This document shows, in pieces, positions 2,585 through 18,632 of a stretch of 36,907 nucleotides of DNA (positions within the stretch are counted from its first letter, which is position 1; the number at the start of each line of letters is the position of its first letter). The translations under genes were made by a program, and so were the position numbers. The DNA is from Clostridia bacterium. GTDB lineage: Bacteria; Bacillota; Clostridia; Oscillospirales; QAMX01. The notes beneath the pieces are model-generated. The model was not told where the DNA came from. It searched no databases and worked only from the letters and a program-made list of their open reading frames with translations. Location of the stretch: positions 1 through 36,907 of the forward strand of contig JAFXIE010000042.1 in assembly GCA_017533425.1 (NCBI GenBank), given 5' to 3'.

Positions 2585-3091
2585 TTATTCCTTTACAAGA
2601 CACTCGACGATCTCGCCGAAATAGGCGCGGTGATAGTCGCGCTTTGCGTATACCGTGGCCTCCACGCCGTCGTCATAGAAGGAGAGGGGATCGATATCGG
2701 CGGCATAGAGCTTGCGGCAGACGAGCACCAGCCGCGCCTCCTCAAAATAAACCTGGCTGTCGCCGAGGTGGGGCGTGAGACCGGTGGCGGCCATCTTGTC
2801 GGTGTCGCGGCCGGAGGTCCTGCCGCAGAAGCTCAGGGCATCGCGATAGTTCTCGTCAAAGAAGCAGCAGGTGAAATAGGGGGACTTTTCCATAAAGCCG
2901 TAGGTGTGGCGCTGGGGGCGCACAAAGGCCTGCACCACGGGCTTGTTCCAGAGAACGCCGGCGGTGGCCCAGGAGGCGGTCATGGTGTTGAAATCCTCGC
3001 CGCAGGCGGCGGAGAGAAGCATCCAGTCGTCTCCGATGAGCTTGAAGATGTTATCGGGAATCTGCCGGGGATCTATAGCGCGAAAACGCAT
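2585..3091 (-). CDS. Flavin reductase-like FMN-binding protein
   Basis: 168 residues. The N-terminal half contains the WMLLSAACGEDFNTMTASWATAGVLW-type strand-loop of the flavin reductase/flavoredoxin fold, followed by a strand ending VRPQRHTYGFM that normally contacts FMN, and YFTCCFF. Members use flavin to reduce small molecules or pass electrons from NAD(P)H. It is the first gene of the operon with the PH-domain and ABC genes and lies behind a perfect-consensus promoter at 3126-3154. The physiological acceptor cannot be told from sequence. Confidence 0.85.
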   Translation of the reverse strand: MRFRAIDPRQIPDNIFKLIGDDWMLLSAACGEDFNTMTASWATAGVLWNKPVVQAFVRPQRHTYGFMEKSPYFTCCFFDENYRDALSFCGRTSGRDTDKMAATGLTPHLGDSQVYFEEARLVLVCRKLYAADIDPLSFYDDGVEATVYAKRDYHRAYFGEIVECLVKE

Positions 3092-3125
3092 GATGATTCA
3101 TTTCCTTTCGGTCATTTCTGCGTTT

Positions 3126-3154
3126 ATTATACATTCCGCAGGGGCATATGTCAA
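3126..3154 (-). promoter_or_regulatory. Consensus sigma-A promoter of flavin reductase operon
   Basis: Read on the minus strand, TTGACA (3149-3154) and TATAAT (3126-3131) are separated by 17 bases, an exact consensus promoter. It lies 35 bases upstream of the flavin reductase start and back-to-back with the plus-strand promoter at 3163-3191. Confidence 0.88.
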
Positions 3155-3162
3155 AAGAAACC

Positions 3163-3191
3163 TTGCAGGAATGGGCGCTATGCGGTATAAT
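3163..3191 (+). promoter_or_regulatory. Sigma-A promoter of CBM9-like gene
   Basis: TTGCAG (3163-3168), 17-base spacer, TATAAT (3186-3191). The GGGAGG ribosome site (3213-3218) and ATG 3227 follow. Only 8 bases separate its -35 from that of the divergent promoter. Confidence 0.85.
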
Positions 3192-3226
3192 ATTTGCAAA
3201 AGTATTCCTTCAGGGAGGAAAAGACC

Positions 3227-3868
3227 ATGGAAAAGAGCTATCCGCTGGTGCGGATTTCAAAGGATGCGGATATTTTTGCCGCGGCAGAGAAGGGCATGCG
3301 CGCCGCCGTGGAGGAATACCGCTGGCAGTCGGATTACACCCCCCGGGCGGAGGCCTTTGTGGCGGTCAGCGAGGATGCGCTGCGCGTTTGCCTCACCGCA
3401 TGGGAACAGGAAATCCGCGCCGAAGGCTGTGCGAGAAACGATATGGTCTGTCAGGACTCCTGCCTGGAGTTCTTCTTTGCGCCGACGGAAGGAAAGCTCG
3501 CCTATTTCAATTTTGAATTCAATCCCCACGGTACCCTCTATGTGGGCTTCTCCCCGGAGGGCACCCGGGAGAGCTCCGCAAAGATCTGTGATGCCCCGGA
3601 CAATGCCTTCTTCCGGGTGGAAACCCGCCAGACCCTTGGCCGCGGGGATGGATCCCGCTGGCAGGTGGCCTTTGATGTGCCCTTTGTATTTATCCGCCGC
3701 TTTGTGCCGAATTTTGACATTGTGCAAAACGGCGGCCTCCGCGGAAATTTCTACAAATGCGGCGATCTGACGGCAACACCCCATTGGGGCAGCTGGAATC
3801 CCGTCGGAACGGGGGCTCCCGACTTCCACCGGCCGGAATATTTTGGCAAAATGCCCCTGGAGGGGTGA
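3227..3868 (+). CDS. Carbohydrate-binding family 9-like protein
   Basis: 213 residues from ATG 3227, chosen because GGGAGG lies 8 bases upstream and the promoter -10 is at 3186-3191; an upstream in-frame ATG at 3194 has no ribosome site and would sit at the transcription start. The protein has the CBM9-like pattern: a series of beta strands, DSCLEFFFAP near the middle, FNFEFNPHGTLY, and RWQVAFDVPF followed by GNFYKCGD near the C-terminus. There is no signal peptide, unlike CBM9 modules of secreted xylanases. Stand-alone cytoplasmic members are common hypothetical proteins in gut Clostridia and Bacteroidota. It precedes a sugar oxidoreductase, so carbohydrate sensing or binding is plausible but unproven. 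Confidence 0.75.
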   Translation: MEKSYPLVRISKDADIFAAAEKGMRAAVEEYRWQSDYTPRAEAFVAVSEDALRVCLTAWEQEIRAEGCARNDMVCQDSCLEFFFAPTEGKLAYFNFEFNPHGTLYVGFSPEGTRESSAKICDAPDNAFFRVETRQTLGRGDGSRWQVAFDVPFVFIRRFVPNFDIVQNGGLRGNFYKCGDLTATPHWGSWNPVGTGAPDFHRPEYFGKMPLEG

Positions 3869-3876
3869 AAAACCTG

Positions 3877-3905
3877 TTGCAATACGCAAATAAAAGGGGT
3901 ATAAT
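3877..3905 (+). promoter_or_regulatory. Sigma-A promoter of Gfo/Idh/MocA gene
   Basis: TTGCAA (3877-3882), 17-base spacer, TATAAT (3900-3905), followed by an AGAGG ribosome site and ATG 3950. It shows that the oxidoreductase can be transcribed independently of the upstream gene. Confidence 0.82.
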
Positions 3906-3949
3906 TTTGATATTGCCCTTTGTAAATTAATGAAAAGAGGATTGTTGAA

Positions 3950-5035
3950 ATGAGCAAACTCAAAGTTGCGATCATCGGCTGCGGCGGCATTGCCAACGGC
4001 AAGCATATGCCCTCTCTCGCCCAGGTTCCCGAGGTTGAAATGGTTGCCTTCTGCGACATCGTCGTGGAGAGAGCCGAGAAGGCCGCGAAGAAGTTCGGCA
4101 TCGAGGGTGCCCGCGTGTATGCCGACTATACGGAGCTTCTGAAGAAGGAAGAGCTGGACGTTGTCCATGTCTGCACCCCCAACCGTTCCCACAGCTTCAT
4201 CACCGTCGCTGCCCTGGAGGCCGGCTGCCACGTGATGTGCGAGAAGCCCATGGCCATCAACTCTGAAGAGGCGCAGAAGATGCTGGATGCAGCTGCCCGC
4301 ACCGGCAAGAAGCTGACCATCGGCTATCAGAACCGCTATCGCTCCGATTCCCAGCTCATGAAGCAGCTGTGCGAGGACGGCACCGTCGGCGATATCTACT
4401 ATGCCCGCGCCCATGCCATCCGCCGCAGAGCCGTTCCCACCTGGGGCGTTTTCCTCAATGAGTATGAGCAGGGCGGCGGCCCCCTCATCGACATCGGAAC
4501 CCATGCGCTGGATCTGACCCTCTGGAATATGAACAACTACAAGCCCCTTTACTGCGTCGGCACCACCTACCATAAGCTCAACGGCGACACCGAAACCGGC
4601 AACGCCTGGGGCGACTGGGATCCCGAGAAGTTCACCGTTGAGGATTCTGCATTCGGCTTTATCGTCATGGAGAACGGCGCCACCATCGTGCTGGAGTCCA
4701 GCTGGGCGCTCAACTCCCTGGATGTCCGCGAGGCCAAGTGCTCCCTGTCCGGCACCAAGGCCGGTGTGGATATGGAGGGCGGCATCCGTGTTAACGGTGT
4801 CATGCACGGCCGTCAGTATGTGACCACCCCCGACCTGAATGCCGGCGGCGTCGCCTTCTATGAGGGCAACGGCAGCAAGGATCCCGCCGTCATCGAGGCT
4901 ACCCAGTGGGTCCATGCCATTCTCAACGACACCGATCCCTGCGTCCTTCCCGAGCAGGCCATCGTCGTCACCAAGATCCTGGAGGGCATCTACGAGTCCG
5001 CAAAGACCGGCAAGCCCTACTACTTCAACAAGTAA
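3950..5035 (+). CDS. Gfo/Idh/MocA family NAD(P)-dependent oxidoreductase
   Basis: 361 residues. The Rossmann nucleotide-binding loop IIGCGGIANGKH is at residues 7-18, the family lysine motif CEKP is near 97-100, and the GTHALDLTLW segment carrying the catalytic histidine is near 183-192. Enzymes of this family oxidise or reduce a sugar, inositol or sugar-derived hydroxyl with NAD(P)H in the cytoplasm. The C-terminal half forms the open beta sheet that binds substrate, so the exact sugar cannot be assigned. It has its own promoter and is followed by a hairpin terminator at 5050-5084. Its codon use is notably biased to C-ending and AAG/GAG codons, consistent with higher expression than its neighbours. 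Confidence 0.93.
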   Translation: MSKLKVAIIGCGGIANGKHMPSLAQVPEVEMVAFCDIVVERAEKAAKKFGIEGARVYADYTELLKKEELDVVHVCTPNRSHSFITVAALEAGCHVMCEKPMAINSEEAQKMLDAAARTGKKLTIGYQNRYRSDSQLMKQLCEDGTVGDIYYARAHAIRRRAVPTWGVFLNEYEQGGGPLIDIGTHALDLTLWNMNNYKPLYCVGTTYHKLNGDTETGNAWGDWDPEKFTVEDSAFGFIVMENGATIVLESSWALNSLDVREAKCSLSGTKAGVDMEGGIRVNGVMHGRQYVTTPDLNAGGVAFYEGNGSKDPAVIEATQWVHAILNDTDPCVLPEQAIVVTKILEGIYESAKTGKPYYFNK

Positions 5036-9647: not shown

Positions 9648-10232
9648 ATGACCCAGAGAGAGCTGATTTCCTTCCTCGGCCTTGTGGAGCCGCTGAAGCA
9701 CCGCCTGCGCCATGCCTGGGGCGCCGACGGCCGGCAGGAAAGCGTTGCCGAGCACAGCTGGCGCCTTGCGCTGATGGCGGAGCTGCTGCGGGAGGAATTT
9801 CCCGATACCGATATGAACCGCGTGGTCGCCATGTGCCTGGTGCACGACTTCGGCGAGGCCGTCACGGGGGATATTCCCGCATTTTTTAAGACCGATGCCC
9901 ATGAGGCGGCGGAGGATGCGGCGGTGGAGCAGCTTCTCTCGCAGCTTCCGGAGGATGTGGGCGGGCGCCTTCGCGATCTTTTTGCCGAGATGGAGGATAT
10001 GCGGACACCGGAGGCAAAGCTCTGGAAGGCGCTGGACAATATGGAGGCGGTGCTGACCCACAATGAAGCCCCTCTGGAGAGCTGGATCGAGCTGGAATAT
10101 ACCGAAAATATCCGCTATGGGGAGAGCACCGTGGCCTTTTCGCCCTGGATGCAGGCCCTGAAGGCGGAGCTCAATGCGGACAGCGCCAGGAAGATCGCCG
10201 AGGAGGGCGAAAAACTTGAGAATTGCCCTTGA
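9648..10232 (+). CDS. HD-domain 5'-deoxynucleotidase-like protein (YfbR/HDDC2 type)
   Basis: 194 residues with AAAGGAG just upstream of ATG 9648. The HD metal-binding signature is present as ESVAEHSW (His near 35), LVHDFGEAVTGDIP (His-Asp near 66-67) and a later Asp in KALDNMEA near 128. This motif order is that of YfbR/HDDC2 phosphohydrolases, which dephosphorylate deoxynucleoside monophosphates. It is the last gene of the hydrolase-dehydrogenase operon, 11 bases after the dehydrogenase. The -35 box of the aromatic operon promoter (10229-10234) overlaps its stop codon. Confidence 0.87.
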   Translation: MTQRELISFLGLVEPLKHRLRHAWGADGRQESVAEHSWRLALMAELLREEFPDTDMNRVVAMCLVHDFGEAVTGDIPAFFKTDAHEAAEDAAVEQLLSQLPEDVGGRLRDLFAEMEDMRTPEAKLWKALDNMEAVLTHNEAPLESWIELEYTENIRYGESTVAFSPWMQALKAELNADSARKIAEEGEKLENCP

Positions 10233-10257
10233 CAGGCGATTTTCAGAGGAGTATAAT
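10229..10257 (+). promoter_or_regulatory. Consensus promoter of the aromatic amino acid operon
   Basis: TTGACA (10229-10234), 17-base spacer, TATAAT (10252-10257). Transcription should start near 10265, about 25 bases before the leader peptide ATG. Confidence 0.9.
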
Positions 10258-10290
10258 ACTCTCATAATTTGTGAATACGGAGCCGAAAAC

Positions 10291-10380
10291 ATGTCCCGTC
10301 AGTTTTTTGCAGCGAAATATTCCTTTTACTTTTACTTTACCAACCCTGAAGTACGAGTGATTTCGCGTGCAGAAATGTAA
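10291..10380 (+). CDS. Phe/Tyr-rich leader peptide of the aro operon
   Basis: A 29-codon reading frame with its own GGAG ribosome site (10279-10282) 8 bases before ATG 10291. It contains five Phe and three Tyr codons, including the run YSFYFYF at residues 10-16, and stops at TAA 10378-10380. It lies between a consensus promoter and an intrinsic terminator, upstream of aroF. This is the classic arrangement of a ribosome-mediated attenuator: stalling at Phe/Tyr codons when the charged tRNAs run low would change RNA folding downstream. The composition matches the operon's product, since pheA is in the operon. The peptide itself probably has no other job. Confidence 0.88.
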   Translation: MSRQFFAAKYSFYFYFTNPEVRVISRAEM

Positions 10381-10454
10381 GGACTAAGGCATAGCATCGT
10401 TGGTTCGTTTACATCCGTCCGCGCAGTGAAATCACTGCGCGGCTATTTTTATTT
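10356..10454 (+). promoter_or_regulatory. Attenuator: antiterminator and terminator of the aro operon
   Basis: The terminator is an 11-bp stem (10419-10429 with 10432-10442) followed by CTATTTTTATTT. The antiterminator uses AGTGATTTC (10356-10364, within the last codons of the leader peptide), which is perfectly complementary to GAAATCACT (10428-10436), in the terminator itself; GC/GT extends the helix by two. A ribosome stalled on the Phe/Tyr codons at 10318-10338 leaves 10356-10366 free and favours readthrough. A ribosome that reaches the stop at 10378 covers part of it and lets the terminator form. Confidence 0.82.
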
Positions 10455-10486: not shown

Positions 10487-11491
10487 ATGATTGCGATTAT
10501 CCGTCCCGATGTTGAACAGCAGAAGATTGACAGCCTGTGCGATTGGCTGCGCAGCCGCGGCCTTGGCGTTCATGTGGCTGTGGGCGAATTTCAGACCATC
10601 GTCGGCCTCATTGGCGATACGACAGCTCTGGATATCGGCCTGCTGGAGGGATTGGATATTGTGGAGCGCGTGCAGCGCATTTCCGAGCCCTTTAAGAGCG
10701 CGAACCGCAAGTTCCATCCCGATGATACCGTCATCGAGGTGGGCGGCGTCAAGCTGGGCGGCGGAAATTTTGCCATGATCGCCGGCCCCTGCTCGGTGGA
10801 AAACCGGAATCAGATCCTGCAGGTTGCCCGCTCCGTCAAGGAAAGCGGCGCCGGCTTTCTGCGGGGCGGTGCCTTCAAGCCCCGTACCTCTCCCTACGAC
10901 TTCCAGGGTCTTGCCGCGGAAGGCATTGACCTGCTTTTGGAGGCAAAGCGGGAGACGGGGATGCCCATCGTAACGGAGATCATGAGCGCCCACCATCTGC
11001 CCCTCTTTGAGCATGTGGATGTCATCCAGGTGGGAGCAAGAAATATTCAGAACTTCGAGCTTCTCAAGGAGCTGGGACATATCGATAAGCCGATTCTCTT
11101 AAAGCGCGGCATTGCCGGCACCCTCAAGGAGCTTTTGATGAGCGCGGAGTATGTTATGGCCGGCGGAAATGAAAAGATCATTCTCTGCGAGCGCGGCATC
11201 CGTTCCTATGAGACGGCCACACGCAACACCCTGGATCTTTCCGCCGTTCCGGTGCTGCATGAGCTTTCCCATCTGCCTGTGGTGGTCGATCCGAGCCATG
11301 CCACCGGCGTTGCCCGCCTGGTTCGTCCCATGGCGCTGGCTGCCGCCGCGGCGGGAGCCGACGGCCTGATGATCGAGGTGCACAACGATCCCCGCAATGC
11401 CCTCTGCGACGGCGCCCAGTCGCTGACACCGGAGGAATTTGCCGATGTTGCGCGCCGGGTGCGGGAAATCCGCAGCATTATCCATGATTGA
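10487..11491 (+). CDS. aroF: 3-deoxy-7-phosphoheptulonate synthase (DAHP synthase)
   Basis: 334 residues. The enzyme condenses PEP with erythrose-4-phosphate, the first step of the shikimate pathway. An N-terminal ferredoxin-like regulatory domain (about residues 1-75) precedes a TIM barrel with IAGPCSVEN near 98, [11 protein letters not shown] near 125, KRGIAGT near 205, CERGIR near 228 and VVDPSHATG near 265. This is the AroA-I-beta type of Bacillota and Thermotoga, whose N-terminal domain commonly confers feedback inhibition by Phe or Tyr. It is the first structural gene after the Phe/Tyr attenuator. An AAAGG ribosome site lies 11 bases before ATG 10487, rather far. Confidence 0.96.
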
Positions 11492-11505
11492 GAGGGTATC
11501 GAGCT

Positions 11506-12561
11506 GTGAAGTGTATTACTGTTTCTGCCTCCTCGGCCTATGATGTGCTGGTGGGAGCAGGGCTGCTGGACAGCCTTGGCCGCATCGTGCGTGCGGTGCT
11601 CAATGTGCCCACGGCGGTGCTCGTTTCGGACAGCCGGGTGGATGCCCTCTACGGCGACCGGGCAGAATCTGCGCTGCGTGCAGCGGATTACCGGGTGATC
11701 CGGTATGTCTTCCCCGCGGGGGAGGGCTCAAAAAACACGGCAGAATATGTACGGATGCTGGAATTTTTTGCGGCGCAGGGGGTGGATCGAAGCTCTTGCG
11801 TCATCGCCCTCGGCGGCGGCGTTACGGGAGATCTGGCGGGCTTTGCGGCGGCCACCTATCTCAGGGGAATTCCTGTGGTTCAGGTGCCGACCAGCGTGCT
11901 TGCCTGTGTGGATTCCTCTGTGGGCGGCAAGGTTGCGGTGGATCTCACGGCGGGAAAGAATCTTGCCGGTGCCTTCCATCAGCCCCGTGCCGTGGTCTGC
12001 GATACACAGCTTTTGGACACCCTTTCTCCTGATTTTTACATCGACGGCTGCGCCGAGATCCTGAAATACGGCATGATCTGCGACCGCGCGCTGCTGGATG
12101 GGCTGACCGGCCCGGATTTTGACCGGGAGGAGATCATCGCCCGCTGCATTTCCCACAAGCGGGATATCGTTTGCCGGGATGAATTTGACAGCGGCGAGCG
12201 TCAGCTGCTCAATTTCGGCCACACCTTCGGCCATGCCGTGGAGCGGCTGTCCGATTACCGCATTTCCCACGGCCGCGCCGTCGCCATCGGTATGGCGATC
12301 ATGTCAAGGGCGGCAGCAAGAATGGGAATCTGCCCGGAGGCAGATGCCCGGCTGTGCTGCGAAAAGCTTGCGGCCTTCTCCCTGCCCACGGAATGTGAAT
12401 ACACGCCGGAGCAGCTGGCAGCGGTGGCGGCAGGGGATAAAAAGCGCCGGGGGAACAGCGTCACCTTGGTGGTTCCCAAGGAAGCGGGACGGTGCGTATT
12501 AAATCCCGTTCCCATGGATCGGCTTGCGGACTATGCCCGGCTGGGACTGGAGGCGCTTTGA
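11506..12561 (+). CDS. aroB: 3-dehydroquinate synthase
   Basis: 351 residues from GTG 11506, chosen because AGAGGG lies 9 bases upstream; an in-frame TTG at 11488 has no ribosome site. It converts DAHP to 3-dehydroquinate using NAD and a divalent metal. Signatures are GEGSKN near 71, the long glycine-rich block [17 protein letters not shown] near 103, [15 protein letters not shown] near 131, and metal ligands in ILKYGMI (Glu before it), [11 protein letters not shown] and HGRAVAIGM. Length is normal for the family. It follows aroF by 14 bases and its TGA overlaps the aroA start. Confidence 0.96.
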
Positions 12562-13808
12562 TGATCGCGCATATTCTGCCATCTGCGCTTTCCGGCTGCG
12601 TCCGGGCGCCGGCCTCCAAATCGGCGGCGCACCGCGCCCTCATCTGCGCGGCTCTGTCCGAGGGGGAGACGGAGATTCTCTGTCCCGGCTCGAATGCGGA
12701 TATTGAGGCCACGCTGCGGTGCCTTACCGGCATCTCGGCGTCGTGCGAGCGCACGGAGTCGGGCTTTGTCATCCGCGGAGGAAAGGCTGCGGGAGAGGCC
12801 GCGGTGGATTGCGGCGAAAGCGGTTCCACCCTGCGTTTTCTCATTCCCGTGGCGGCGGCCTTAGGCACGCAGTGCGATTTTTACTGCGCCGGAAGGCTTC
12901 CCCAGCGCCCCCTGGACGGGCTGCGGGAGACTCTTGCGGCAAACGGCGTCAGCCTCTCCGCCCCCGGCGAAAACCCTGTGCGGGTGCGGGGCGGATTTGG
13001 CGGCAGCCGGTTTACCCTGCCGGGCAATATTTCCTCCCAGTTTGTCAGCGGGCTTCTCTTTGCCCTGCCGCTGCTGCCAAATGGGGGCGAAATTCGCATA
13101 GAGGGCCCCCTTTCCAGCGCAAATTATGTGGAAATGACACTGCAGGCGCTGAAGCAATTCGGCATTTCCGTCACGCGCACGCCGGAGGGGTTCTCCCTTC
13201 CCGGCGGCTGCCGCTATAAGACCCCCGGCCGCCTCTCCATCGAGGGGGATTGGTCGGGCGCAGCCTTCTGGCTGTGTGCCGGACAGGCGGTATCCGGGCT
13301 TTCTGCCCATTCCGCCCAGGGCGACCGGGCCATTCTGGATGTTCTTGCCCGCATGGGCGCAGAAATTGACCGCACGGAGGATACCGTTTCCGCCCGCGGC
13401 GCCCTTTGCGGCACGGTGGTGGATGCCGATCCCATTCCCGATCTCGTTCCGCCCATTGCGGCGGCGGCGGTGCACGCGGCGGGGGAGACCCGCATCGTCA
13501 ATGCCGCCCGCCTGCGGGATAAGGAAAGCGATCGTCTCCGCACCACGGCGGCGGCACTCAATGCCCTCGGCGCCCGGGTGGAGGAGCTGCCCGACGGTCT
13601 CATCATTTCCGGCGGCAAGCCCCTGACCGGCGGAACCTGCGATTCCTGCGGGGATCACCGCATCGCCATGGCGGCGGCGGTGGGCGCCCTGCGGGCCGAA
13701 GGGGAGAGCCACATTCTCGGCGCGGAATGCGTGGCAAAGTCCTATCCCGGCTTTTGGCGGGATCTTGCCCGGCTGGGTGGCCGGGTCACTCTGGAAGAAG
13801 GAGCGTAA
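12561..13808 (+). CDS. aroA: 3-phosphoshikimate 1-carboxyvinyltransferase (EPSP synthase)
   Basis: 415 residues from ATG 12561 (TGATG overlap with aroB, GGAGG seven bases upstream). It transfers the enolpyruvyl group of PEP to shikimate-3-phosphate. Motifs: ASKSAAHRAL near residue 17, DCGESGSTLRFL near 87, PGNISSQFVSGLL near 153, RLRDKESDRL near 313 and CGDHRIAMAAAVGAL near 367. The length is slightly below the usual 425-440 residues but all substrate-contact motifs are present. Codon use is strongly GC-rich. Confidence 0.96.
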   Translation: MIAHILPSALSGCVRAPASKSAAHRALICAALSEGETEILCPGSNADIEATLRCLTGISASCERTESGFVIRGGKAAGEAAVDCGESGSTLRFLIPVAAALGTQCDFYCAGRLPQRPLDGLRETLAANGVSLSAPGENPVRVRGGFGGSRFTLPGNISSQFVSGLLFALPLLPNGGEIRIEGPLSSANYVEMTLQALKQFGISVTRTPEGFSLPGGCRYKTPGRLSIEGDWSGAAFWLCAGQAVSGLSAHSAQGDRAILDVLARMGAEIDRTEDTVSARGALCGTVVDADPIPDLVPPIAAAAVHAAGETRIVNAARLRDKESDRLRTTAAALNALGARVEELPDGLIISGGKPLTGGTCDSCGDHRIAMAAAVGALRAEGESHILGAECVAKSYPGFWRDLARLGGRVTLEEGA

Positions 13809-13813
13809 GTAAC

Positions 13814-14899
13814 ATGGCTTCATCCTTTGGAAATCGTGTGAAGATCACAATATTCGGTCAGTCCCATTCCGCCGGCATCGGTGTTACGGTGGAGGGACTT
13901 CCCGTGGGTGAGCGCGTTGATATGGATGCCCTCGCGGCCTTCCTTTCCCGCCGGGCTCCCGGGGGAGAGCTGGCAACGCCGCGAAAAGAGCCGGATCTGC
14001 CGGAAATCCTCAGCGGCCTTGTGGATTGCGTCACCTGCGGCGCGCCCCTAACGGCCATCATCCGCAACACCAACACCCGCAGCGGCGATTATGCCGCCAT
14101 TGCAAACACCCCGCGCCCCGGCCACGCCGATTATACGGCGGAGGTAAGATACGGAGGCTTCCAGGATAAGGCGGGCGGCGGCCATTTTTCCGGCCGTCTG
14201 ACGGCGCCGCTGTGCATCGCCGGCGGCATTGCCCTGCAGATGCTTTCCCACCGCGGGGTGGAAATCGGCGCCCATATTTCAGCCCTGGGCGGGGTGAAGG
14301 ACACCCCGTTTGACCCCGCATCTGTCAGCCGGGATGAGCTTTTGGCGGTGAAATCGGCCGCATTCCCCACCCTTTCCGGGACTGCCGGAGAGGCCATGTG
14401 CGAGAAAATCCGCGCCGTCCGGGCAGCGGGGGACTCGGTGGGCGGCATTATCGAATGCGCTGCCGTCGGCTTGCCTGCGGGCATCGGAGATCCCATGTTT
14501 GACGGCATGGAAAACCGCATTGCCGGGCTGGTTTTCGGCATTCCCGCCGTCAAGGGCGTGGAATTCGGCGCAGGCTTTGCCGTGGCCGATATGACCGGAT
14601 CGGAAAACAACGACCCCTTTATCGAAACCGACGAGGGCATCCGCACGGCGGGCAATAACCACGGCGGCATCCTCGGCGGCATCACCTCCGGCATGCCCCT
14701 CATCTTCCGCGCCGCCTTTAAGCCCACCCCCTCCATCGCAAGAGAGCAGCAGACGGTGGATATGATCCATGGCGGCGCGGCGACCCTTGCGGTGCGCGGT
14801 CGGCATGACCCCTGCATTCTGCCGAGAGCCGTGCCCTGTGTTGAGGCGGCGGCAGCGCTCGCAATTCTTGACGCCTGGTGCGAAACAAATTGGATGTAA
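13814..14899 (+). CDS. aroC: Chorismate synthase
   Basis: 361 residues from ATG 13814 with AAGGAG upstream. It converts EPSP to chorismate with reduced FMN, without net oxidation. Motifs: FGQSHSAGIGVTVEGLP near residue 14, RNTNTRSGDY near 84, RPGHADYT near 99, GGGHFSGRLTA near 121, GIRTAGNNHGGILGGITSG near 276 and RGRHDPCILPRAVP near 329. It supplies the substrate of the pheA product encoded next. Confidence 0.97.
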   Translation: MASSFGNRVKITIFGQSHSAGIGVTVEGLPVGERVDMDALAAFLSRRAPGGELATPRKEPDLPEILSGLVDCVTCGAPLTAIIRNTNTRSGDYAAIANTPRPGHADYTAEVRYGGFQDKAGGGHFSGRLTAPLCIAGGIALQMLSHRGVEIGAHISALGGVKDTPFDPASVSRDELLAVKSAAFPTLSGTAGEAMCEKIRAVRAAGDSVGGIIECAAVGLPAGIGDPMFDGMENRIAGLVFGIPAVKGVEFGAGFAVADMTGSENNDPFIETDEGIRTAGNNHGGILGGITSGMPLIFRAAFKPTPSIAREQQTVDMIHGGAATLAVRGRHDPCILPRAVPCVEAAAALAILDAWCETNWM

Positions 14900-14913: not shown

Positions 14914-16059
14914 ATGGAACTGAAAGATATTCGTTGTGAAATTGACAAAATCGACGAGGAGCTTGTCAAGCTCTTCTGCCGCCGGATGGACATTGCCGCC
15001 GATGTAGCGGCCTGCAAGAAGGAAATGGGTCTTCCCGTGTACGATCCAGCCCGGGAGCGCGACAAGCTCTGCGGTGTGGCGGATGCGGCGGGGGAGGAGA
15101 ACCGCACGGCGGTGTGCGCCCTGTATGAGCTGCTTTTCGAGCTTTCCCGTGCAAAGCAGGACGGCATTCTCTGCCCTGCCTCCGAGCTGGAGCGCGCCAT
15201 TGCGGCTGCCCGGGAGTCCACGCCGGAGCTCTTCCCGGCACGGGCACAGGTGGCCTGCATGGGCGTCGAGGGCGCCTATGCCCAGATCGCCTGCGAAAAG
15301 CTCTTTTCTCTGCCCGGCATCGTCTACTGCCGCAATTTCAAGAGCGTTCTGGCCGCTGTCCGGGACGGTCTGTGTCGCTACGGCGTGCTGCCCATTGAAA
15401 ATTCCACCGCAGGCTCTGTCAAAGAGGTGGCAGATCTCGTGGCGGAATCGGGAATGTATATCGTGCGCAGCGTCCGCCTGAAGGTGGATCACTGCCTCGT
15501 GGCGAAGAAGGGCTGCACCCTTTCCGGCATCCGGGAGATATATTCCCATCCCCAGGCCATTGCCCAGTGCGACCACTTCCTGCATGGGCTCAAGGATGTC
15601 CGCATCACCCCCTGCGAGAATACGGCGATGGCTGCGCGCATGGTGGCGGAGCCGGAGCGCAAGGATGTGGCCGCCCTTTCCTCGGCAAACTGCGCCGGTC
15701 TCTACGGCCTTGCCGTGCTGCAGGACGATGTGCAGGATCGCGCCAACAACTACACCCGCTTTGTCTGCATCTCCAAGGAGCTGGAAATCTATCCCGGCGC
15801 CGACCGCACGAGCATTATGCTGGCGCTGCCCAACAAGCCCGGCGCTCTCTACCGTGTCCTGGCTCGCTTCTCCGCCCTGGGCGTCAATATGGTCAAGCTG
15901 GAAAGCCGCCCCGTGCCGGAGCGCGATTTTGAATTTGTATTCTATCTGGATCTCGATAAGCCCGTCGTGGCGCCGGAGCTGACCGCCCTGCTGCGGGAGC
16001 TTTCCGGCTCCTGCCGCGAGTTCCGCTACCTCGGCAGCTATTCGGAGATGAACGGCTGA
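14914..16059 (+). CDS. pheA: Bifunctional chorismate mutase / prephenate dehydratase
   Basis: 381 residues in three parts. An AroQ-class chorismate mutase occupies about residues 1-85 (IRCEIDKIDEELVKLFCRRM, then YDPARE). Prephenate dehydratase spans about 110-285, with GVEGAYAQIA, LPIENSTAGSV and NNYTRF. A C-terminal ACT domain (about 296-380) carries KPGALYRVLARF and the LESRP Phe-binding motif, so inhibition by phenylalanine is expected. The enzyme turns chorismate into phenylpyruvate. Its presence explains why the operon leader is rich in Phe codons. Its TGA overlaps the aroE ATG. Confidence 0.96.
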   Translation: MELKDIRCEIDKIDEELVKLFCRRMDIAADVAACKKEMGLPVYDPARERDKLCGVADAAGEENRTAVCALYELLFELSRAKQDGILCPASELERAIAAARESTPELFPARAQVACMGVEGAYAQIACEKLFSLPGIVYCRNFKSVLAAVRDGLCRYGVLPIENSTAGSVKEVADLVAESGMYIVRSVRLKVDHCLVAKKGCTLSGIREIYSHPQAIAQCDHFLHGLKDVRITPCENTAMAARMVAEPERKDVAALSSANCAGLYGLAVLQDDVQDRANNYTRFVCISKELEIYPGADRTSIMLALPNKPGALYRVLARFSALGVNMVKLESRPVPERDFEFVFYLDLDKPVVAPELTALLRELSGSCREFRYLGSYSEMNG

Positions 16060-17279
16060 TGCGCTGCGGACTCATCGGCCGCAAGCTCGGCCACTCCTTT
16101 TCCCCGGAGATCCATCGGGAGCTGGCGGATTATCCCTATGCCCTCTATGAGCTGGAGCCGGAGGATGTGGAATCCTTCGTCCGCCATGGGGAGGCGGAGG
16201 CCTTCAACGTCACCATTCCCTATAAGGAATTGGTGCTGCCCATGATGGATGAGCTTTCTGAGACCGCCCGGCGCATCGGCTCGGTCAATACGGTGGTTCG
16301 CCGTCCGGACGGAACCCTCTACGGTGACAACACCGACGCCGAGGGAATGCGCTGCATGTTTTCCCGGGCGGGCTTTTGCATGAAAGGCAAAAAGGTGCTG
16401 GTGCTTGGCAGCGGCGGTTCCTCCCGCACGGCGGTGGATGTGCTGCGGGGACTGGGCGCCAGCCCTGTGGTCATTTCCAGGTCGGGGGAGAATCATTACG
16501 GAAATCTCCATCTCCATGCGGATGCGGCCTACATTGTCAACACAACGCCGGTGGGCATGTACCCCGCCTGCCCGGCGCGTCCGCTGGATATCGACCTCTT
16601 CCCGCGGCTGGAGGGCGTGGCGGATATCATCTATAACCCCGCCCGCACCCAGCTTCTTTTGGATGCGGAGGCGCGGGGCATTCCCTGCACAAACGGGCTT
16701 TCCATGCTGGTTTCCCAGGCGAGGGCTGCGGCTGAAATCTTCCTCGGTGAGAGCATTTCGCCGGAGAAGGTGGAGGAGATCATTCGAAAGATCGAGACGG
16801 CCACCCAGAATATCATTCTCATCGGTATGCCGGGCTGCGGAAAAAGCACCGTGGGAGCGCTGCTGGCAAAGGCCCTCGACAGACCCTTCCTTGATGCGGA
16901 TGCAGAGCTTTCCCGCGAGGACGGACGTCCCGTGCCGGAGATCATCCGGACGGATGGGGAAGAGGCCTTCCGCCGGAAGGAGACGGAGGTCTGCCGCCGG
17001 CTCGGAATGCGCAGCGGCTGCGTGATCGCCTGCGGCGGCGGTGTCGTGACGCGGGAGGAAAATTATCCCCTGCTGCATCAAAACGGCAGAATTGTGTATA
17101 TCGACCGGCCTGTGGAGGAGCTTTCCTGCGAGGGACGACCCATTTCGCAGGCAAAATCCCCCGCGGTGCTGGCCGCGGAGCGCATCCCCCTCTACAGGGC
17201 GTGGTGTGATATCTGCGTGGCATCCGGGGAGAGCCCGGAGCTTACGGCAAAGGAAATTCTAAAGGAGCTGAATCAATGA
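16059..17279 (+). CDS. aroE: Fused shikimate dehydrogenase - shikimate kinase
   Basis: 406 residues forming two enzymes. The shikimate dehydrogenase part (about 1-245) has GHSFSPEIH near 10, the catalytic-lysine motif FNVTIPYKE near 48, GDNTDAEG near 87, the NADP loop LGSGGSSRTA near 115 and NTTPVGMYP near 163. The shikimate kinase part (about 250-406) has Walker A GMPGCGKST near 256, DADAELSRE near 277, EEAFRRKE near 301 and the shikimate-contact CGGGVV near 326. It reduces 3-dehydroshikimate and then phosphorylates shikimate at two sites on one chain. These are usually separate proteins; such fusions are known but uncommon. Separate aroE or aroK genes are not in this window. Confidence 0.94.
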   Translation: MRCGLIGRKLGHSFSPEIHRELADYPYALYELEPEDVESFVRHGEAEAFNVTIPYKELVLPMMDELSETARRIGSVNTVVRRPDGTLYGDNTDAEGMRCMFSRAGFCMKGKKVLVLGSGGSSRTAVDVLRGLGASPVVISRSGENHYGNLHLHADAAYIVNTTPVGMYPACPARPLDIDLFPRLEGVADIIYNPARTQLLLDAEARGIPCTNGLSMLVSQARAAAEIFLGESISPEKVEEIIRKIETATQNIILIGMPGCGKSTVGALLAKALDRPFLDADAELSREDGRPVPEIIRTDGEEAFRRKETEVCRRLGMRSGCVIACGGGVVTREENYPLLHQNGRIVYIDRPVEELSCEGRPISQAKSPAVLAAERIPLYRAWCDICVASGESPELTAKEILKELNQ

Positions 17280-17728
17280 AAATTCTCATTCTCAACGGCC
17301 CCAACCTCAATCTCCTGGGGCGACGGGAGCCGGATATTTACGGCCATCGCGACTATGCGGCGCTGACGGCATATATCGGCGAAACCTGCCGCCGGATCGG
17401 CGCGGAATATGAGGTTTTTCAGACCAATCACGAGGGTGTTCTGGTGGATATGATCCAGGGCGCGCTGGAGACCGGGGTGGATGCCATTGTTCTCAATCCC
17501 GCGGCCTACACCCACACCAGCATCGCCATTGCCGATGCCCTGCGGGCGGTGGAGATCCCCACCGCGGAGGTGCATCTCTCCGATGTGGATGCCCGGGAGC
17601 CCTATCGCCGCATTTCCTATGCCGGCGAGGCCTGCGTGGCCACCTTCAAGGGCAAGGGCTTTGAAAGCTACGGCGAGGCCATTTGCTATATGGCGGAATA
17701 TGTGAGGAATTCCAAAGATGCGCATTGA
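17276..17728 (+). CDS. aroQ: Type II 3-dehydroquinate dehydratase
   Basis: 150 residues. The opening LILNGPNLNLLGRREPDIYG carries the catalytic tyrosine, NPAAYTHTSIAI near residue 76 carries the catalytic histidine, and VHLSDVDAREPYRRISY near 101 binds substrate. It dehydrates 3-dehydroquinate to 3-dehydroshikimate. The start ATG overlaps the aroE-aroK stop (ATGA), and its own 3' end overlaps the amidohydrolase start by 11 bases. The usual histidine just before ARE in the last motif is replaced by aspartate. Confidence 0.96.
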   Translation: MKILILNGPNLNLLGRREPDIYGHRDYAALTAYIGETCRRIGAEYEVFQTNHEGVLVDMIQGALETGVDAIVLNPAAYTHTSIAIADALRAVEIPTAEVHLSDVDAREPYRRISYAGEACVATFKGKGFESYGEAICYMAEYVRNSKDAH

Positions 17729-18515
17729 TTTTCATACCCACGCCTTCCCGGATAAGCTGGCGGCGCGGGCTGTCGGCAGCCTGTCGGATGCCTCCGGCGG
17801 GCTTCCGCCCTGCACGGACGGAACGGTGGAGGGCCTGCGGGCCTCCATGCGCGCCGGCGGGGTGGATATCTCGGTGGTGGCAAATATTGCCACAAATCCC
17901 CGCCAGATGCACGCGGTGAACGATTTTGCCGCATTAATCAACGGCGAAGATATTGTCTCCTTCGGCTCGGTGCATCCCGATGCCCCCGATGCCCTGGAGG
18001 AGCTTTCCCGCATTCATGCCCTGGGGCTGAAGGGCGTCAAGCTGCATCCGGAATATCAGGACTTTTTTGTGGATGATGCGCGTATGCGTCCCATCTACGA
18101 GAAAATTTCCGAGCTGGGGCTCATCACCCTCTTCCATGCCGGGGGAGATCTCGGCTTTCCCGGCCCCTACCGGGCAACACCGGAGCGCATGGCTCGGGCG
18201 CTTGCTTGGTTTTCATCCCCTGTGGTTGCCGCCCATTGGGGCGGTATGTTCATGGGGGAGGAGGTTTTGCGCCATCTCTGCGGCCGGGATATCTATTTTG
18301 ACATCTCCTTCGGCCAGGGATGCATCCCGCCGAGCCTTGCCCGCCGCATCGTGGACACCCACGGATGCCACCGCCTTCTCTTTGGCACGGACACCCCCTG
18401 GCATAGCCCGGCGCAGGAGCTGCGCCTGCTGGATGCCCTGGGGCTTGCGGAGGGGGAACGCTCGGCCATTGAGGGGGGCAACGCCGCTGCCCTTCTCGGC
18501 ATCTGCGGGGCGTAG
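17718..18515 (+). CDS. Amidohydrolase-family (TIM-barrel) metal hydrolase
   Basis: 265 residues. Metal-binding motif DFHTHAFP at residues 4-11, a lysine/His strand GVKLHPEYQ near 97, FHAGGD near 137, AHWGG near 174 and the final metal aspartate in FGTDTPWHS near 226. This is the amidohydrolase-2 pattern (ACMSD/TatD-like decarboxylases and hydrolases). It overlaps aroQ by 11 bases and is therefore the last gene of the aromatic operon. No amidohydrolase is a required step of aromatic amino acid synthesis, so its substrate is unknown; processing an aromatic or cyclic acid side product is speculative. Confidence 0.85.
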   Translation: MRIDFHTHAFPDKLAARAVGSLSDASGGLPPCTDGTVEGLRASMRAGGVDISVVANIATNPRQMHAVNDFAALINGEDIVSFGSVHPDAPDALEELSRIHALGLKGVKLHPEYQDFFVDDARMRPIYEKISELGLITLFHAGGDLGFPGPYRATPERMARALAWFSSPVVAAHWGGMFMGEEVLRHLCGRDIYFDISFGQGCIPPSLARRIVDTHGCHRLLFGTDTPWHSPAQELRLLDALGLAEGERSAIEGGNAAALLGICGA

Positions 18516-18574: not shown

Positions 18575-18588
18575 TGTAGGCAATTAAG

Positions 18589-18632
18589 GCCCGTCTTCCC
18601 GAAGCGGGAAGGCGGGCTGCTTTTGTCGATTT
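18589..18632 (+). terminator. Terminator hairpin between the aro operon and SLH-GH25 gene
   Basis: A 13-bp stem with one G-T pair (18589-18601 with 18605-18617) and a 3-base loop is followed by TGCTTTTGTCGATTTTTG. It can terminate the aro operon. Because it also lies after the promoter at 18546-18574, it may act as an attenuator of the lysozyme gene. Confidence 0.75.

Follow-up and report, generated by a model that had tools for sequence, protein, structure and literature searches.

The leader ahead of aroF in the window, the 36,907-nucleotide stretch of a Clostridia bacterium contig analysed here, is very probably a classical ribosome-mediated transcription attenuator with a predicted response to starvation. 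While this mechanism is already known, the match between the control codons and the content of the operon behind them is new. Across Clostridia, the element is likely to be one ancient aroF leader-peptide attenuator whose Phe:Tyr mix has been repeatedly retuned as operons gained or lost pheA and tyrA, duplicate DAHP synthases having become Phe- and Tyr-responsive isozymes by leader codon replacement, Tyr-dominated attenuators included.

Leader and operon in the window

The window genome is a gut-type Clostridia metagenome assembly of 151 contigs and 86% completeness. The elements of the leader, the first of which begins within the last bases of an HD-domain gene (9648-10232), are as follows.

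10229-10257, + strand: predicted sigma-A-type promoter, TTGACA-17-TATAAT, 12/12 consensus positions
10279-10282, + strand: GGAG Shine-Dalgarno sequence of the leader ORF
10291-10380, + strand: leader peptide ORF of 29 codons, MSRQFFAAKYSFYFYFTNPEVRVISRAEM, ATG at 10291, TAA at 10378-10380
10304-10317, + strand: region 1, 5' strand of the 1:2 helix, pairing in the MFE fold with 10361-10366 and 10368-10375
10318-10338, + strand: control codons Y-S-F-Y-F-Y-F, F/Y enriched over shuffles in this frame only
10356-10375, + strand: region 2, with the antiterminator strand (10356-10366) and the 1:2 partner (10361-10375)
10426-10436, + strand: region 3, the antiterminator partner, made of part of the terminator 5' arm, the loop and the first 3'-arm bases
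10419-10450, + strand: intrinsic terminator, stem 10419-10442 followed by a T-rich tail

The promoter, the 29-codon peptide with its YSFYFYF run and the terminator had been named in the original prediction and were all recovered. Transcription is predicted to start at about 10264. The terminator stem has 10 pairs and a 4-nt loop and is followed by CTATTTTTAT. The nine-base complement proposed between 10356-10364 and 10428-10436 proved exact, and the antiterminator helix extends to 11 bp (10356-10366 with 10426-10436) with one G-U pair. Overlooked in that earlier reading was the 1:2 helix (10304-10317 with 10361-10375), which occurs together with the terminator in the most stable structure predicted for the leader when untranslated and completes the full classical three-helix layout of 1:2, 2:3 and 3:4. 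The leader folds more stably than its dinucleotide shuffles (z = -5.3). Pairing of the segment after the F/Y run with its own terminator reached -24.7 kcal/mol, compared with -14.2 for the terminators of other loci and -13.3 for shuffles, and was unmatched by any swapped terminator or shuffle. No NCBIfam or Pfam model was found for the leader peptide, whose control codons amount to F5Y3. The sequence hallmarks of an attenuator were found in the leader, namely a translatable leader ORF with a Shine-Dalgarno sequence, tandem codons for the end product of the operon, mutually exclusive terminator and antiterminator and a 1:2 helix, and the antiterminator strand sits just downstream of the control codons, as attenuation requires.

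Behind the leader, the genes from aroF to an amidohydrolase-family gene form a run of close or overlapping genes, and no promoter-like sites were found inside the operon between 10480 and 18900.

10487-11491, + strand: aroF, DAHP synthase with ferredoxin-like domain (NF006421, TIGR01361, PF18152)
11488-12561, + strand: aroB (TIGR01357)
12492-13808, + strand: aroA, true start probably near 12570 (TIGR01356)
13727-14899, + strand: aroC, true start probably near 13841 (NF003793, TIGR00033)
14914-16059, + strand: pheA, chorismate mutase-prephenate dehydratase-ACT, the sole copy detected in the genome (NCBIfam/Pfam matches)
16059-17279, + strand: aroE-aroK fusion (NCBIfam/Pfam matches)
17276-17728, + strand: aroQ, type II dehydroquinase (NCBIfam/Pfam matches)
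17718-18515, + strand: amidohydrolase-family gene, last of the run (PF04909)
18588-18618, + strand: probable operon terminator of 14 pairs

Shikimate dehydrogenase and shikimate kinase are fused into a single ORF in this operon, which the amidohydrolase-family gene closes just ahead of the 14-pair terminator. AroF is 94% identical in a relative of the same genus, Clostridia bacterium isolate RGIG1911 (Goat_Cecum). In a sister genome, the aroF ORF is split by a frameshift in the assembly (G010:C32:42569-43569; L004, L020), which may reflect faulty sequencing or real damage to the gene.

From the observed parts, together with their conservation, covariation and geometry, we infer that the promoter is used, that ribosomes stall and in which direction the operon responds. 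Transcription would start near 10264 and a ribosome would translate the 29-codon leader. With ample charged tRNA-Phe, and probably also tRNA-Tyr, the ribosome would reach the stop at 10378 and cover part of region 2, the terminator (10419-10442) would form and the operon would be off. A ribosome stalled on the YSFYFYF codons would lie over region 1 and leave region 2 (10356 onwards) free to pair with 10426-10436 before the terminator 3' arm is synthesised; with the antiterminator formed, RNA polymerase would read through into aroF-aroB-aroA-aroC-pheA-aroEK-aroQ.

In the folding calculations the ribosome was modelled as masking RNA to 13 nt past the A site, the 13-nt front being an assumption. 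For stalls at codons 10-16, the antiterminator had a modelled probability of 0.98 when the transcript ended at 10436. Full-length equilibrium folds of the stalled state gave it only 0.30-0.58, with the terminator still favoured at most stall positions. Once the ribosome had reached codon 20 or gone further, up to the stop, the terminator probability was 1.00. Since the equilibrium favours the terminator even when the ribosome is stalled, the switch would depend on the antiterminator folding first, as is also the case in other leader attenuators. The antiterminator also formed early without any ribosome (0.82 at 10436), so that the 1:2 helix, which is present but modest in its effect here, may be a weak guard, and shut-off by this helix alone is uncertain at the window locus.

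Leaders across Clostridia

AroF loci were drawn from the family, the order, a named genome collection and the class, and leaders were recognised as upstream ORFs with a purine-rich ribosome-binding site and at least five F/Y in 10 residues. Such a leader ORF was present in 71 of the 101 aroF loci of the family and order (70%), compared with 2.6% of dinucleotide shuffles, while no Trp enrichment was found in the leaders of these loci. The run occurs in the ORF frame alone, with 6.8 F/Y per 10 codons versus 1.8 and 2.1 in the two remaining frames. Members of the window genus have nearly the same peptide. Between genera it diverges except in its F/Y content, and the number, order and spacing of F and Y vary. 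Sequence outside the helices is not conserved, but the in-frame F/Y codons are kept. The sample from the class, in which the closest AroF proteins are over-represented, had F/Y-rich ORFs at 19 of 28 readable loci, in genomes from other orders. No leader could be recognised at about 30% of the order's aroF loci, some of which carry T-boxes. As judged from these sequences, the leader element is widespread in the class Clostridia and no local oddity.

An RNA sequence, GGYAAGGCYT, recurs after the F/Y run across several families, with Lys always encoded by AAG (L056, L068, L072, L074, L078, L098, L136 and L139-L143). It looks like an RNA-level element and may belong to region 2 or mark a pause site for RNA polymerase.

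Covariation was assessed in 69 leaders with a terminator. The own antiterminator averaged -20.4 kcal/mol, compared with -15.1 for swapped terminators (p 1.4e-12) and -14.9 for shuffled segments, and the 1:2 pairing averaged -28.5 kcal/mol, compared with -19.6 for swapped (p 2e-12) and -20.2 for shuffled, although the relatedness of the genomes means that these p values overstate the evidence somewhat. Many families contribute to the effect; 65 distinct best antiterminator helices occur in the 69 loci, and almost every genus has helix sequences of its own. The distance from the last F/Y codon to the start of region 2 is 11-27 nt in 33 of 40 helices of at least 9 bp (hand count), whether region 2 lies inside the ORF or beyond its stop, and this is the spacing that a stalled ribosome would leave free.

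Terminator equilibrium probability alone separated the stalled (0.81) from the finished ribosome (0.89) only weakly, and the measure adopted in its place was how much of the terminator 5' arm is captured while the 3' arm is still unsynthesised. At that stage, upstream RNA captured 0.75 of the 5' arm and loop when the ribosome sat on the F/Y codons and 0.26 when it had reached the stop, while swapped partners gave 0.49 and 0.26, respectively (p 4e-14, with the same caveat of relatedness). Both comparisons that the original prediction had proposed came out in its favour, as F/Y runs are kept in related aroF leaders and the helix changes in a compensatory way with the terminator, own partners pairing better than swapped ones. 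Conservation, covariation and geometry support its stalled-ribosome model, in which Phe/Tyr codons are combined with an antiterminator strand.

Control codons and operon content

Operons were sorted into classes according to the genes that follow aroF. The Tyr share of the control codons, Y/(F+Y), tracks the end product of the operon in these sequence comparisons. In the family and order set, its median was 0.75 in aroF-tyrA operons (n=9), 0.40 in operons with both genes (n=38) and 0.18 in those with pheA only (n=15). The aroF-tyrA class comprises loci for which no pheA turned up within about 8.5 kb or, at three loci, before the contig ended; a few of these operons contain other aro genes. The classes differed significantly (Kruskal-Wallis, p 4e-7; 8e-5 when each genus contributes a single value). 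In an independent set of named genomes the medians were 0.81, 0.44 and 0.30 for tyrA, both and pheA (n=6, 23 and 9), respectively, and the pooled medians were 0.75 for aroF-tyrA, 0.43 for tyrA with pheA and 0.23 for aroF...pheA. Cultured carriers of such leaders include Oscillibacter valericigenes, which has both genes, and Bittarella massiliensis, with a Tyr-rich leader before aroF-tyrA. Mapped on an AroF tree with 100 loci, operon class shows a minimum of 24 changes. Phylogenetic contrasts gave r=0.71, with the expected sign in 47 of the 51 contrasts with an operon change, while sign tests restricted to supported pairs that are independent in the tree stood at about 5 to 0 in the expected direction, too few pairs for p<0.05.

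The window genome itself carries both kinds of leader. Its second aroF (L056, contig C46) lies on the reverse strand at 3776-4765 with tyrA directly after it (2914-3747), and is preceded by the leader MTRFCYSGYAYRFAYYYGKASSGAANQMV, which is F2Y6 and has a terminator. The single detected pheA therefore stands behind an F5Y3 leader and the single detected tyrA behind an F2Y6 leader. With three Tyr codons remaining, the window leader is Phe-biased and not Phe-only. The same pair of leaders was found in both other genomes of the genus and in a genome of another family (G123).

Alternative explanations and known systems

The nascent F/Y-rich peptide might itself arrest the ribosome in response to a small molecule, in the way TnaC senses tryptophan, rather than through codon starvation. 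The short stretch after the F/Y run (GKAF/GKAY or EVRVIS) that recurs in several lineages would suit such an arrest peptide, but the codons of the GKA stretch are themselves fixed, with AAG for Lys in every listed locus, which points to RNA. An arrest peptide is very unlikely also in view of the free variation of F/Y number, order and spacing, the divergence of the rest of the peptide and the tracking of operon product by the F:Y ratio. More unlikely still is an incidental ORF whose hairpins belong to a riboswitch, a T-box or a protein-binding attenuator. While the strong structure and the T-boxes of some aroF operons of the order could be taken in its favour, it is the in-frame F/Y codons that are conserved and not the sequence outside the helices, and neither the window leader at gathering score nor any of ten related leader loci matched Rfam at the leader. 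A functional small protein with the terminator as a constitutive transcription filter would accord with the near identity of the peptide within the genus, but peptides from different genera show no sequence relationship and the antiterminator strands covary with the terminators, which leaves this explanation scarcely credible. Ribosome-mediated attenuation remains the preferred reading.

Among individual Rfam models, Phe_leader (RF01859) did not match the window leader at gathering score or at E<=1, and T-box (RF00230) did not match it either, though the same search finds T-boxes elsewhere in the genome. A plant snoRNA hit on the minus strand of the leader (E<=1) was rejected as chance. The window genome has nine T-box-like matches, one of them above the gathering score. 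Matches precede pheS and trpB, so that leader peptides and T-boxes appear to share the aromatic pathway, and the contrast with T-boxes drawn in the original prediction is real within this genome. Two of the genome's T-box matches (L048, L053) precede AMP-binding (acyl-CoA ligase-like) genes, an unusual target if real. In family f12 and one genome of f3, T-boxes (RF00230) replace leader peptides before aroF (L147-L150, L128), an exchange of regulators at one gene; these leaders control the same genes, with uncharged tRNA bound directly and no leader peptide.

Leader-peptide attenuation is the known mechanism of E. coli pheL and trpL. The E. coli pheA leader (PheL, RF01859) and the trp and his leaders form the same 1:2, 2:3 and 3:4 helices, and their control codons likewise lie between region 1 and region 2. 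Unlike PheL, the window leader precedes a whole shikimate-pheA operon, mixes Phe and Tyr codons and has no match to RF01859. In C. glutamicum, a leader of aroF, aroR, was reportedly described by Neshat et al. in 2014. Like the window leader, aroR lies upstream of a DAHP synthase operon; its Phe-Tyr-Phe leader is reported from experiment to act by ribosome-mediated attenuation (PMC11802643, PMC4046766). It answers Phe limitation and not Tyr (PMC11802643), so that Tyr sensing by the window leader must not be assumed. It differs in its phylum and its short F-Y-F run, and no operon-dependent F:Y tuning is described for it. The uORFC-13-1 motif before Acholeplasma aroF, a uORF with Phe codon(s) and a terminator, is a proposed attenuator known only from Acholeplasma and unassigned environmental sequences (PMC8632094); it is set apart by its description, which includes no Tyr component or F/Y tuning. 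His leader attenuators occur in the Bacillus cereus group, Eubacteriales and Erysipelotrichales (PMC9413887). They are also classical leader-peptide attenuation in Bacillota, but with His codons, the his operon and a sporadic distribution.

Tyrosine genes are listed as T-box regulated, and no Firmicutes aminoacyl-tRNA synthetase gene was then known under classical attenuation (PMC1262725). Of the "notable variation" that had been claimed for the window leader, the contrast with T-boxes stands within this genome, while its novelty is reduced by precedents for Phe/Tyr aroF leaders outside Proteobacteria (C. glutamicum aroR, Acholeplasma) and by the His leaders of Firmicutes. No aroF leader attenuators in Clostridia and no Tyr-dominated leaders were found in the literature, mostly non-subscription, that was searched.

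The tie between codons and operon content amounts to a natural series of codon-swap experiments. It would allow a test of whether leader Tyr codons sense tRNA-Tyr, for which C. glutamicum aroR was negative (PMC11802643). For abundant gut Clostridia, in which T-boxes are usually expected, these leaders would represent a class-wide regulator, unlisted in Rfam, for the entry enzyme of aromatic amino acid synthesis.
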